This document shows positions 15,263 through 19,493 of a DNA stretch of 64,000 nt, one piece after another. A program made the position numbers and the translations under genes. How positions within the stretch are numbered: position 1 is the stretch's first letter; every line of letters begins with the position of its first letter. Under the pieces are notes generated by a model that was given only the letters and a program-made list of their open reading frames with translations, was not told where the DNA came from and made no database searches. The stretch is from Rhizobiales bacterium NRL2 (GTDB taxonomy: Bacteria > Pseudomonadota > Alphaproteobacteria > Minwuiales > Minwuiaceae), in assembly GCA_001664005.1 (NCBI GenBank), contig CP016093.1:3525031-3589030 (forward strand), written 5' to 3'.

Positions 15263-15296
15263 TCTGACCGTCTCCGGACGACAGAGACACACGCGC

Positions 15297-15323
15297 GGGC
15301 CGCGCCGGTAACCGGGGCGGCCC
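15297..15323 (+). terminator. Hairpin after the substrate-binding protein gene
   Basis: A 12-bp stem with one mismatch (GGGCCGCGCCGG / CCGGGGCGGCCC) closes a TAA loop 34 bp past the stop codon. The tail, GTTGGGTT, is only weakly T-rich. It is probably a terminator separating this gene from the FixK/Fnr-controlled gene downstream. Confidence 0.55.
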
Positions 15324-15338
15324 GTTGGGTTCCGGCGC

Positions 15339-15352
15339 TTGACCTGCGTCAA
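15339..15352. promoter_or_regulatory. FixK/Fnr-type box in front of the APH/P-loop fusion gene
   Basis: TTGACCTGCGTCAA fits the FixK/Fnr pattern TTG(A/C)-N6-(T/G)CAA exactly, with symmetric 5-bp arms TTGAC / GTCAA. Its centre lies 71.5 bp before the GTG start at 15417. A TATCTG hexamer at 15379-15384 could serve as the -10 element. Confidence 0.7.
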
Positions 15353-15416
15353 GGCTGGCCTGCGCCATGTGTGTCACCTATCTGTCGGCACACAGGCATC
15401 CGGAGGGCCGCATTTC

Positions 15417-16976
15417 GTGTCGGAACCCGAAACGCAGGACGAGGCGCGCCGTCTCCTGGCCGACCCGGCGACCCACGGCGGCGGCACGGTCGAAGTCGTC
15501 GAAACCCACGCCAACCTGATCTTTCTGGGTCCCGAACTGGCCTTCAAGATGAAGAAGGCCGTCCGCTACCCCTATCTGGATTACGGCACGCCGGAACGGC
15601 GGCGGCGCTTCTGCGAAGCGGAGGTCGAGATCAACCGCCGCACCGCACCGGAGATCTATCTCGACGCCGTTCCGTTGACGCGGGAGCCCGGCGGGGCGCT
15701 GGCGCTGGACGGCGCCGGCGAACCGGTTGAGTGGGTCGTGCGCATGAAGCGCTTCGACGATGACATGCTGCTCGACCGCCTGGCGCGGCGGGGCGAACTG
15801 ACCGACCGGATCTGCCGGGACACGGCGGATGTCATCTTTGACTTCCATCAGCAGACCGAGACGCGCGGCGGGCGCGACGCCGCCGCCGACATGACCGCGG
15901 TGGCGGACGGCAATATCGCCGAGCTCCGGCGTCACGGCGCGGCGGTATTCGAGGATCGCGCGATCGACCTGCTCGAAGAACGCACCCGGCAGGCCATCGA
16001 ATCCGGGCGGAGCCTGCTGCATCAACGGGCAGCGGAGGATGCGGTGCGCCACGTCCATGGCGACCTGCACCTGCGCAACATCGTCCTGCTCGACGGACGC
16101 CCGACGCTGTTCGACGCCATCGAGTTCGACCCGGGCCTCAGCGACATCGACGTCCTCTACGACCTGGCCTTCCTGCTCATGGACCTGCTGCACCGCGATC
16201 TGAAACGGGAAGCCAATCTGGTGATGAACCGATACCTGGCGCGCAGCGGCGACTATCGCGGCGTGGGCCTGCTCCCCCTCTACCTGTCGCTCAGGGCCGG
16301 AATTCGGGCGCACACCACCGCCTCGGCGGCCAAGGGGCCCGGGGACCGGGAGAAGGCCGGGGAGGCGCAGGCCTATCTCGACCTCGCGCTGGCGATGCTG
16401 GCGCCCGACCGGCCGCGCGCGGTCGCCATCGGCGGGGCCAGCGGCACGGGCAAGTCGACGGCCGCGGCCATGCTCGCCCCGCTGCTGGGGAAGGCCGCGG
16501 GCGCGGTGCATCTGCGCAGCGACGTCATCCGCAAGCGCCTGAAAGGCCGAAGGCCCGAGGAGAAACTGGGCGAGAGCGCCTACAGCTCCGCCGTTTCGCG
16601 CCGCGTCTTCCACACCCTGGCCGAAGAGGCGCAGACAGTCGCCAGGGCGGGCCGACCGGTGGTCGTGGACGCGGTCTTCGGCCACGCCAGGAACATAGAT
16701 CCCCTGCGCGCGGCTCTGGCGGTTGAGGGCGTGAGCCTGGAAGGCTTCTGGCTCGACGCGGACCCGGCGATCCTGCGCGAACGCGTCGGCGGTCGCCGCG
16801 ACGATGCCTCCGACGCCGACGAACGGGTTCTGGCGAAGCAGCTGGGCAATCTGGAACGGCCTTCGGGCTGGCGGCTCATCGACGCGTCGGGAAGCCCGGA
16901 GGACACTGTCGCGCTGATCCGCGCCGCGCTGAACGAAGACAGTTCCGGCGCCCCACAGGGCCGAACCCGGCTATGA
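15417..16976 (+). CDS. Aminoglycoside-phosphotransferase-like / P-loop ATPase fusion protein
   Basis: A 519-residue two-domain protein. The N-terminal half (COG2187-like) is kinase-like, with HGDLHLRNIVL and FDAIEFDPGLSDIDVLYDLAF near residues 215-260. The C-terminal half (COG0645-like) is a predicted nucleotide kinase with Walker A GASGTGKST near residue 340. The GTG start was chosen for its GGAGGG site and its fixed 71.5-bp spacing to the upstream box. Homologues often sit in hypoxia or stress regulons. The stop overlaps the convergent ackA stop. The substrate is unknown; antibiotic resistance is not implied. Confidence 0.85.
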   Translation: MSEPETQDEARRLLADPATHGGGTVEVVETHANLIFLGPELAFKMKKAVRYPYLDYGTPERRRRFCEAEVEINRRTAPEIYLDAVPLTREPGGALALDGAGEPVEWVVRMKRFDDDMLLDRLARRGELTDRICRDTADVIFDFHQQTETRGGRDAAADMTAVADGNIAELRRHGAAVFEDRAIDLLEERTRQAIESGRSLLHQRAAEDAVRHVHGDLHLRNIVLLDGRPTLFDAIEFDPGLSDIDVLYDLAFLLMDLLHRDLKREANLVMNRYLARSGDYRGVGLLPLYLSLRAGIRAHTTASAAKGPGDREKAGEAQAYLDLALAMLAPDRPRAVAIGGASGTGKSTAAAMLAPLLGKAAGAVHLRSDVIRKRLKGRRPEEKLGESAYSSAVSRRVFHTLAEEAQTVARAGRPVVVDAVFGHARNIDPLRAALAVEGVSLEGFWLDADPAILRERVGGRRDDASDADERVLAKQLGNLERPSGWRLIDASGSPEDTVALIRAALNEDSSGAPQGRTRL

Positions 16977-18149
16977 CGCTCCGACCGGCGCGCCGATGCA
17001 GCGGGCGGCATGTATGGCCAGCATCTTCTCCTCGTCCGTCGGCAGGCGGAGCAGCCTGATCCGGCTGCCGTCGGCGTCGAAACGCTCCGCGCCTGCAGCG
17101 TTCGCGGCCTCGTCTGCGACGGCGCCAAGCAGGCCGAGCCGGCTGCAGATGTCGGCGCGAATCGCCGGCGCGTTCTCCCCCACCCCAGCGGTGAAGACCA
17201 GCCCGTCCAGACCGCCGAGGCTGACCGCCAGCGCGCCGATCTCGCGGGCGACGCGATAGCAGAAGTACTCGATCGCGAAGGCCGCCGCGGGCGTGCCGGC
17301 TGCCTGCAGTTCACGCATGTCGCCGCTCAGCCCCGACAGTCCCTTCAGGCCGCTGTCGCGGTAGAGCATGCGCTCCACCTCGGCCAGCGGGCGGCCTTCC
17401 CGCCACAGATGCAGGACCACGCCCGGATCGAGTTGGCCGGTGCGCGTCGCCATGGGCAGGCCGTCCAGGGCGGTGAAACCCATGGTGCTGTCGACGCTGC
17501 GTCCGTCGCGCATGGCGCAGAGGCTGGCGCCGGCGCCGAGATGGGCCACGATGACCCGTCCGGAGGCGAGTTCAGGATCCAGATTGCGGAGCCGCCGGGC
17601 GATGTATTCATAGGATAGGCCGTGAAAGCCGTAGCGACGGACACCGGCTTCGGTCATTTCGCGGGGCAGGGCATAGACCTCGGCCACCTTCGGATGGTCA
17701 CGGTGAAACGCGGTATCGAAGCAGGCAACCTGCGGCGTTCCCGGCAGCGCCCGGGCCAGCGCCACCATGCCGGCCAGGTTATGCGGCTGGTGAAGCGGCG
17801 CCAGCGGAATGAAGGCCTCCAGTTCGCGCACCACCGCCCCGTCCGCCAGCAGCGGCCAGACATGGTCGGGTCCGCCGTGGACGATGCGGTGGGAACAGGC
17901 GGCGATCTTCGCCCCGCCCAGCGCCTCGCCGATCCAGGCCACCAGCGCAGCCATGGCGCGCTCGTGGTCCGCGCCCGGCAGTTCCTGCGAATGGGGCTCG
18001 CCCGCTGCTTCGGCGCGGAAGGCGCAATCGTCGGATCCCAGCGCATCGACATGGCCGAAGGCAACCCGCGCCAGCGACGGCAGGCGGAACGCCCCGAACT
18101 TGATCGTCGAGGAACCGGCATTGACCGCGAGGATCAGGTCGTCCGCCAT
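16971..18149 (-). CDS. ackA: Acetate/propionate kinase
   Basis: A 392-residue ASKHA-fold kinase converting acetyl-phosphate and ADP to acetate and ATP. It has the signature LAVNAGSSTIKFG at the N-terminus and VNAL-free variant loops such as VIAHLGAGASLCA and DTAFHRDHP. The start follows GGGGAGGACGG and overlaps the phosphotransacetylase gene by 16 bp, so the pair forms one transcript. With that enzyme it makes ATP from acetyl-CoA without respiration, which suits the FixK/Fnr box in front of the operon. Confidence 0.94.
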   Translation of the reverse strand: MADDLILAVNAGSSTIKFGAFRLPSLARVAFGHVDALGSDDCAFRAEAAGEPHSQELPGADHERAMAALVAWIGEALGGAKIAACSHRIVHGGPDHVWPLLADGAVVRELEAFIPLAPLHQPHNLAGMVALARALPGTPQVACFDTAFHRDHPKVAEVYALPREMTEAGVRRYGFHGLSYEYIARRLRNLDPELASGRVIVAHLGAGASLCAMRDGRSVDSTMGFTALDGLPMATRTGQLDPGVVLHLWREGRPLAEVERMLYRDSGLKGLSGLSGDMRELQAAGTPAAAFAIEYFCYRVAREIGALAVSLGGLDGLVFTAGVGENAPAIRADICSRLGLLGAVADEAANAAGAERFDADGSRIRLLRLPTDEEKMLAIHAARCIGAPVGAS

Positions 18150-19090
18150 CCGTCCTCCCCGATCACCGCCGCGGCCGCCGCGAGGCGCCGCGCATGGGCG
18201 ATGACCGCTGCCACGGCGGCGGAGGCGAGGCGCGCGGTCGCGTCGTCGGAGCGGCTTGTCAGGATGATCGGCGCGCGTGCCCCCATCACCACGCCGGCAG
18301 CACGCGCTTTGGCGAAGAAGGTGAGCTGCTTGGCGATCATGTTGCCCGCCTCCATGTCCGGCGCGACCAGGATATCGGCGCGGCCCGCGACGGGCGAGCG
18401 GATGCCCTTGATCCTGGCTGCCTCCACGCTGACGGCGTTGTCGAAGGCCAGCGGCCCGTCCAGGTCCGCCCCCGTGATCTGACCGCGGTCGGCCATCTTG
18501 CAGAGCGCGGCGGCGTCCACCGTGGAGGGGATCTTCGGCGTGACCGTCTCGACGGCCGACAGGATCGCGACCTTGGGCCGTTCGATCCCCAGCGCGTGCA
18601 CGCATTCGATGGCGTTCCGGACGATGTCGGCCTTGGCCAGTAGATCAGGATAGATGTTGATGGCCGCATCGGTGATGAAGTGCAGGCGGTCCTGACCCGG
18701 GATCTCCAGGGCGAAGACATGGCTGAGACGCTTTTCCGTGCGCAGGCCGGTCTCCTTGGCAAGCACCGCATGGAGCAGTTCGTCGGTGTGCAGACTGCCC
18801 TTCATCAGCGCCTCGGCACGGCCCTGACGGACGGCCGCAACCGCCATCTCCGCGGACTCGTGGCTGTGGCGGGTGTCGATCCGGGGCCAGGCCGAGATGT
18901 CGAGACCGAGCTCCGCGGCGGCGGCGTCGATGCGGTGCCGAGGCCCCACGAGCAGAGGCTCGATGAGGCCCGCACGGGCCGCGTCCGCGGCGCCCTGCAG
19001 CGAGGGCGCGTCACAGGGATGAACGACCGCCGTGGGCGCGGACGGATAGGCGGCGGCGCGCGCCACCAGTGCGGAGAAGATTTCGGTCAT
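18134..19090 (-). CDS. Phosphate acetyl/butyryltransferase
   Basis: A 318-residue phosphotransacetylase of the Ptb/Pta short type, transferring an acyl group from CoA to phosphate. Characteristic segments are LMKGSLHTDELLHAVL, FITDAAINIYPDL, VAILSAVETVTPKIPST and DILVAPDMEAGNMIAKQL. It lacks the MaoC domain that fuses to some homologues. It is the first gene of the operon with ackA. The ATG lies 70.5 bp from the centre of the FixK/Fnr-type box at 19154-19167. Acetyl- versus butyryl-CoA preference cannot be read from the sequence. Confidence 0.9.
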   Translation of the reverse strand: MTEIFSALVARAAAYPSAPTAVVHPCDAPSLQGAADAARAGLIEPLLVGPRHRIDAAAAELGLDISAWPRIDTRHSHESAEMAVAAVRQGRAEALMKGSLHTDELLHAVLAKETGLRTEKRLSHVFALEIPGQDRLHFITDAAINIYPDLLAKADIVRNAIECVHALGIERPKVAILSAVETVTPKIPSTVDAAALCKMADRGQITGADLDGPLAFDNAVSVEAARIKGIRSPVAGRADILVAPDMEAGNMIAKQLTFFAKARAAGVVMGARAPIILTSRSDDATARLASAAVAAVIAHARRLAAAAAVIGEDGWRTT

Positions 19091-19153
19091 TGTTCCGGTT
19101 CGCCCGATCTGTTGCTGCCCTGGGCAGCCTGACCGCCACATGCTGCAACAGCA

Positions 19154-19167
19154 TTGCGCCAGATCAA
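19154..19167. promoter_or_regulatory. FixK/Fnr-type box in front of the phosphotransacetylase-ackA operon
   Basis: TTGCGCCAGATCAA matches TTG(A/C)-N6-(T/G)CAA. Its centre is 70.5 bp from the ATG of the minus-strand operon. It lies in the first copy of a 20-bp direct repeat (GCCAGATCAAGAYCGCCGGG, one mismatch), whose second copy contains the box at 19197. Confidence 0.65.
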
Positions 19168-19196
19168 GACCGCCGGGGCCAGTGTGGTGCGCACAA

Positions 19197-19210
19197 TTGA
19201 GCCAGATCAA
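19197..19210. promoter_or_regulatory. FixK/Fnr-type box in front of the 72-residue protein gene
   Basis: TTGAGCCAGATCAA contains the perfect TTGA-N6-TCAA core. Its centre is 71.5 bp before the ATG at 19275 and 43 bp (about four helical turns) from the centre of the neighbouring box. A TATGCT hexamer at 19233-19238 falls exactly where a -10 element belongs if the box is centred at -41.5. Confidence 0.7.
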
Positions 19211-19274
19211 GATCGCCGGGCGCCGCCGCCGCTATGCTCGCGTCATTCTGGGAACAACGCATGGAGGGGCGTCA

Positions 19275-19493
19275 ATGGCCTCGATCTCGACCATCGTGAA
19301 GAAGCACGTCGAAGCCGCCGTCGCCGAGGCCGCGGAAACCGGCTATTCCCGCGAGGAAGTCGCGCGCTCGATGATGTCCTTCGTCATGCAGATCTACCGC
19401 GAGAACCGGCCGATCGAGGAGATCGCCGAGGAACTGCGCTACATCATCGACAATCTCGACCCCGACGAGCAATACGCCTTCATGCGGCCCTGA
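19275..19493 (+). CDS. Small 72-residue protein, unknown, probably oxygen-regulated
   Basis: A 72-residue soluble, helical and acidic protein. It starts MASISTIVKKHVEAAVAEA and contains TGYSREEVARSMMSFVMQIYRENRPIEEIAEELRYIIDNLDPD. No cysteines, no signal peptide, no family recognised. GGAGGGG stands at ideal distance before the ATG. A FixK/Fnr box lies 71.5 bp upstream, in a shared divergent promoter region with the phosphotransacetylase-ackA operon, so it should be made under the same conditions. It may be a small regulatory or stabilising protein of low-oxygen metabolism; this is inference. Confidence 0.8.
   Translation: MASISTIVKKHVEAAVAEAAETGYSREEVARSMMSFVMQIYRENRPIEEIAEELRYIIDNLDPDEQYAFMRP

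Follow-up and report, generated by a model that had tools for sequence, protein, structure and literature searches.

What do three neighbouring transcription units of Rhizobiales bacterium NRL2 have in common, each carrying a 14-bp box of the FNR/FixK type at nearly the same distance from its start codon? The question arises from a 64,000-nt stretch of the genome (contig CP016093.1, positions 3,525,031 to 3,589,030, part of a single 4.70-Mb contig), here called the window, where the units are a gene for a two-domain kinase fusion, the pta-ackA unit and a gene for a 72-amino-acid (72-aa) protein. A preliminary description had proposed that the boxes stand at one fixed distance from the start codons and that the genes form a low-oxygen module. 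We hold it likely, at a probability of roughly 0.86, that the boxes mark class-II-type promoters of the ordinary alphaproteobacterial FNR/FixK regulon, from which pta-ackA, the kinase and the small protein would be activated at low oxygen. The features, in window coordinates, are as follows.

15339..15352, no strand assigned: FNR/FixK box TTGACCTGCGTCAA, upstream of the kinase fusion gene (sequence read directly)
15417..16976, plus strand: kinase fusion, APH-like/AAA_33 P-loop, 519 aa, GTG start (domain search and gene caller)
16971..18149, minus strand: ackA, acetate/propionate-family kinase (domain searches and gene caller)
18134..19090, minus strand: pta, phosphate acetyl/butyryltransferase family (PTA_PTB), first gene of the pta-ackA unit (domain searches and gene caller)
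19126..19131, minus strand: weak -10-like CAGGCT for pta, 22 nt after the box
19154..19167, no strand assigned: FNR/FixK box TTGCGCCAGATCAA, 70.5 to the pta start and 114.5 to the 72-aa start; kept in sister genome G007
19197..19210, no strand assigned: FNR/FixK box TTGAGCCAGATCAA, 71.5 to the 72-aa start and 113.5 to the pta start; kept in G007
19233..19238, plus strand: -10-like TATGCT for the 72-aa gene, 22 nt after the box
19275..19493, plus strand: 72-aa protein ending FMRP, of a family without a model, predicted three-helix fold

Direct reading bore out the boxes, the start codons, the position of TATGCT and the box-centre distances of 71.5 (kinase GTG, 15417), 70.5 (pta ATG, 19090, minus strand) and 71.5 (72-aa ATG, 19275). 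The three starts were also picked by a codon-model gene caller, which supports the 72-aa gene alone independently (the caller was trained on 13 window genes, including the kinase, pta and ackA). The motif TTG(A/C)-N6-(T/G)CAA matched these three sites and no further one in the window, a bare count that is unremarkable (at least three matches in 65 of 300 dinucleotide shuffles of the whole window). Within promoters, at least one match was found in 11 of 5,000 shuffles of the kinase stretch (15263-15416) and at least two in 0 of 5,000 shuffles of the divergent stretch (19091-19274), figures that flatter the motif because the stretches were picked after it had been seen. Likewise post hoc is the probability of about 0.0014 that three distances drawn from the smoothed distribution of 16 other sites in the genome would be so nearly equal. 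Box conservation and the genome-wide -10 signal are stronger evidence than the promoter-stretch shuffles.

In an activated FNR promoter the box is centred at -41.5, so that the -10 element lies about 22 nt downstream of the box. To the three window boxes we added 16 oriented sites outside the window (TTGAY-N4-RTCAA with a start within 200 nt; derived from 14 boxes, two of them counted both ways, hemN not included, and some orientations may be wrong). The pattern nAnnnT stood at a gap of exactly 22 nt in 7 of 20 aligned sites (the 19 own-genome sites and one from family genome G002), and 21 to 22 nt after the box in 11 of the 19 own-genome sites (9 of 16 outside the window). Shuffled controls gave means of 1.2 and 1.0 and reached these counts in 0 of 2,000 trials, even with the best gap anywhere allowed. 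A gap of 21 to 22 nt is what a box at -41.5 requires and thus fits activation from that position. Distances from box to start at the 16 other sites were variable (median 80, range 12.5-183.5); since the nAnnnT gap is shared genome-wide while start distances vary, what stays nearly constant is the gap from box to -10 rather than the one from box to start codon. The proposed -10 of the 72-aa gene, TATGCT, occupies the position at which other boxed promoters of the genome carry theirs.

The region between pta and the 72-aa gene spans 184 bp, and its two boxes lie only 43 bp apart, centre to centre. An arrangement this tight raises the possibility that just one of the divergent promoters is FNR-activated, with the second box assisting or repressing that same promoter, as does the single box before the 72-aa gene, with no pta beside it, in five same-genus genomes. 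Each divergent promoter, however, has an nAnnnT 22 nt after its own box, and the weak pta element reads CATGCT in the sister genome; we therefore consider a single activated promoter possible but not the favoured arrangement.

Conservation of the boxes in close relatives, a check set beforehand, was found for two of the units. A box preceded the 72-aa gene in seven of the eight family genomes having the gene (missing in G002) and the kinase gene in three of five (this genome, G000; its near-identical sister G007; and G002). Across seven same-genus genomes the box lay 68.5-111.5 from the 72-aa start in changing surroundings, with pta-ackA as neighbour in G000 and G007, a different setting in G004, and a tRNA-like stretch (recognized by eye) ahead of the gene in G003, G005, G006 and G008. 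The sequence TTGCGCTGGATCAA was carried by five of the seven boxed family genomes, within three sets of unlike flanks. For the kinase, the identical 14 bases stood before the G007 orthologue and before a 45%-identical protein in G002 (distance 64.5-72.5 in the three genomes); two 41%-identical homologues (G003, G006) were box-less, and the fusion was not found in G004, G005 or G008. The pta box was conserved in G007 only, and pta itself was not found in congeners G003, G004 and G005 (E up to 1e-40). The "one fixed distance" of the preliminary description thus holds at this locus but was noticed post hoc and is not conserved; with values from 64.5 to 111.5 in relatives, fixed box-to-start spacing is ruled out as a functional rule. 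The low-oxygen module fared similarly: boxes of the FNR/FixK type, a matching regulon and an FNR of the oxygen-sensing type in the genome speak for it, but the three units are not a conserved module, the cluster being seen as such, among the genomes examined, only in G007.

These results also bear on the most sceptical account, that a loose motif was matched at the three boxes by chance and that the preliminary description singled out distances equal only by coincidence. The whole-window shuffles and the varying spacing among relatives agree with it; against it, all three boxes fall within two short promoter stretches, they stay while flanks and neighbours change, and their -10 spacing is common to sites genome-wide. 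We regard chance as a very improbable explanation.

An FNR/FixK-type regulon is visible in the rest of the genome. TTGAN6TCAA occurred as 36 palindromes against 18 for the reversed pattern, and the stretches around the 34 palindromes outside the window were inspected; some of these loci had few or no gene calls (e.g., L031 and L035), and "outside called genes" therefore includes poorly called stretches. Boxes preceded a ccoN-like COX1 gene (cbb3-type oxidase), two Usp genes and genes for Hsp20, OmpW, AhpC/TSA, CBS-BON, AAA_32/Lon-like, FtsH, protoglobin-MCP and Sulf_transp proteins; hemN was boxed too, with the box centre 72.5 from its ATG. Adjoining the ccoN-like gene is a Crp/Fnr gene, at genome 2875574-2876314 on the minus strand, whose product has C-x2-C-x7-C and a further cysteine (C13, C16, C24 and C112, in a numbering that rests on a proposed start codon). 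Alignment with a solved FNR places C13, C16 and C112 on cysteines and C24 out of register; the DNA-reading helix, ETVSR, is identical to that of FixK2. By its cysteines and E-x-x-S-R helix the regulator is assigned to the FnrL-type oxygen-sensing FNRs, with cluster binding predicted. A possible separate genome-wide class of the form TTGCG-N4-ATCAA gave 8 matches against 2 controls. As a side observation, a protoglobin-MCP chemoreceptor gene (L036 2580-3938; genome about 1418879-1420237) lies behind a perfect palindromic box, TTGATCTAGATCAA, which suggests oxygen taxis under FNR control.

The boxes could be real and yet be served mainly by another member of the Crp/Fnr group, either a nitric oxide (NO)-responsive protein of the DNR/NnrR type or one reached by the FixLJ-FixK route. 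The genome offers candidates: nine Crp/Fnr-like matches in all, six over the cut-off (one of these six, L010, looks like a MarR protein), two of them being near-identical copies that adjoin DUF1858-like and NnrS-like genes (named by eye). DNR, FixK and FNR also recognise very similar sequences, as described in the portion of PMC2908626 available. Yet no clear FixL orthologue was found (best match 30% identity among 47 kinase hits), the two NnrS-like clusters carry none of the 36 palindromes, and the co-boxed genes fit the FNR/FixK set more than the DNR set, so we judge another principal regulator unlikely. Apart from this question, the cluster of Crp/Fnr, 72-aa DUF1858-like and NnrS-like genes occurs twice in G000, at 591800-594800 (L058) and 2606500-2609500 (L059), with proteins identical over the parts compared by eye; this is probably a recent duplication of an NO-response cluster.

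If FNR is the regulator, events at the locus may be pictured as follows. When oxygen is scarce, the FnrL-type protein would hold its [4Fe-4S] cluster and dimerise. As a dimer it would occupy the 14-bp boxes, whose centres lie near -41.5, and bring in RNA polymerase. The boxes and their conservation, the cysteines and reading helix of the regulator, many other genes of the regulon and the genome-wide spacing of box and -10 are observed, whereas binding, oxygen response and transcription starts are inferred. Raised pta-ackA would convert acetyl-CoA to acetate via acetyl-phosphate, yielding ATP, and the two-domain kinase and the small three-helix protein would be raised alongside in roles that are likewise conjectural.

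Rv2004c, a COG2187-type kinase-like protein, is presumably the same APH/AAA_33 fusion as the kinase described here. It likewise belongs to a low-oxygen regulon, that of DosR/devR in hypoxia, although this regulon has a regulator of another family and lies in another phylum (PMC1950094 and PMC8701281, in the parts available). Closer parallels come from Bradyrhizobium diazoefficiens, whose FixK2 boxes follow the same consensus, TTGA/C-N6-T/GCAA; according to the sections of PMC9104804 at hand, bll4412 is preceded by the same 14 bases as the kinase gene here, and the first base of the box lies -22 to -287 from the start, mostly -37 to -115 (-77 to -78 here). In the same account (Table 2), a phosphoketolase-acetate/propionate kinase unit with a FixK2 box was expressed about 10-fold lower in a fixK2 deletion, and an extract of PMC10888616 reports pta and ackA up together with FixK2 targets in a phaR mutant; acetate metabolism under FNR/FixK control is thus not new. 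Unlike B. diazoefficiens, where FixLJ-FixK2 drives the response (PMC9104804, same sections), the candidate regulator here is a cysteine-bearing FNR. The gene set resembles the alphaproteobacterial FNR/FixK core (cbb3 oxidase, hemN-type gene, Usp, OmpW, Hsp20, CBS proteins and the regulator gene), whose table also lists hypothetical proteins and a "putative kinase"; the portion of that source available (PMC2908626), in contrast, names neither pta and ackA nor the 72-aa family.

The FNR/FixK switch, then, is ordinary, and the new part is the 72-aa family. With these promoters a textbook low-oxygen regulon reaches into a little-studied lineage, for which they yield a clean box-to-(-10) rule; the lead is a small conserved protein, lacking any family model, that is repeatedly under the same oxygen switch, as is the two-domain kinase in some lineages, and both could be tested in tractable relatives. 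The 72-aa family was found in 38 of 372 alphaproteobacterial genomes with a wider profile and in 37 of 385 with a narrower one. In a phylum-wide scan it was found in 16 of 398 genomes, 12 of them in one non-alphaproteobacterial family, where the neighbours, by eye, resemble what we take to be yacG-coaE-pilD of Pseudomonas. Codon changes in the gene are concentrated at third positions, so the open reading frame is a real gene, and R45, F69, R71 and P72 are invariant in 33 members. None of the 33 matched Pfam or NCBIfam at E up to 0.01, the 72-aa protein itself giving sub-cut-off family hits only (E of 0.018 or worse). Its AlphaFold2 model has three helices and a loose tail (predicted local distance difference test 88.7); Foldseek returned no solved-structure match to the model at E up to 0.001, and a profile search of PDB sequences met designed helical proteins (E 3e-5 and 5e-5), matches taken as compositional. 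The family was not met in the literature searched, by text searches only, and it may be among the hypothetical proteins of PMC2908626 and PMC9104804.

A box lay within 300 nt upstream of the 72-aa gene at 19 of 50 loci (control 0 of 50), made up of 16 of 42 (control 0 of 42) and 3 of 8 further loci (control 0 of 8); excluding the eight same-family loci, the count was 12 of 42 (control 0 of 42). These counts are not independent because related genomes were counted singly. Six of the 16 phylum-scan genomes fall outside the box count, and two extra alphaproteobacterial members lie outside the 50 loci, one with a motif match 23.5 before the profile start (G088) and one with none (G202). As background, 40 wider loci (320 kb) held 48 boxes and 15 control matches; among them L062 is misplaced, its box showing at +326, and the same contig is L016 in the count of 42. 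A gene without an adjacent box can still sit inside a boxed operon: G363, G286 and G074, of one family of genomes, share the order box-usp-hemN-72aa-fixL-fixJ (L192, L205 and L206), and in G363 the Usp, HemN, PAS-kinase and response regulator were confirmed by Pfam. The 72-aa gene of G012 has hemN, a PAS kinase and a Crp/Fnr gene around it, and that of G193 lies between NnrS and Usp. We think it fairly probable that the 72-aa protein founds an undescribed small-protein family, with three helices and a tail in which F-x-R-P never varies. On this view the family recurs in the low-oxygen response under FNR/FixK/ANR, both across Alphaproteobacteria and in one further family of Pseudomonas-like appearance, and its neighbours in several lineages are hemN, Usp or FixLJ; binding of a partner through the conserved tail may let the protein adjust a low-oxygen process. 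Separately, TTGATCCGTGTCAA stands 57.5 nt ahead of the start of one non-alphaproteobacterial member (L227, whose neighbours look Pseudomonas-like by eye).

Several observations weigh against the reading of the boxes as activating FNR/FixK sites. At the shared gap the kinase promoter has CACCTA and no -10-like nAnnnT, and nAnnnT is missing there from the hemN promoter and from 7 of the 16 other sites. Nine of the 34 palindromes outside the window fall inside called genes, some others lack a recognisable start within 200 nt, and for some boxed genes a link to low oxygen is not obvious (a DEAD helicase, a 17-kDa-antigen-like lipoprotein, a PqiA-like protein and a SnoaL/FMO pair); part of the box list is therefore probably chance. 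No upstream box was present at 26 of 42 and 5 of 8 of the 72-aa loci, families f10, f4, f121, f126 and f68 had none within 300 nt upstream of the gene, and L226 had none near its family member. The kinase fusion family was matched in 131 of 372 alphaproteobacterial genomes (E up to 1e-40); at 34 loci (the best 31 of the 131 matched genomes and three family loci) a box was found upstream of 5 (control 0 of 34) and 29 were without. For pta, 30 of 74 matches were examined and boxes were found at two (its own genome and one weak case; control 1 of 30), leaving 28 without, though its own upstream region is a poor test because pta can lie inside operons. Neither the kinase fusion nor pta is supported as a general FNR target.

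As to the genes themselves, a search of PDB sequences at E up to 0.1 returned nothing for the kinase fusion, which contains the motifs HGDLHLRN and GGASGTGKST. The pta product scored above the NCBIfam cut-off for two phosphate acetyltransferase subfamilies only (PRK08190 and PRK11890), and the start of ackA overlaps the end of pta by 16 nt.

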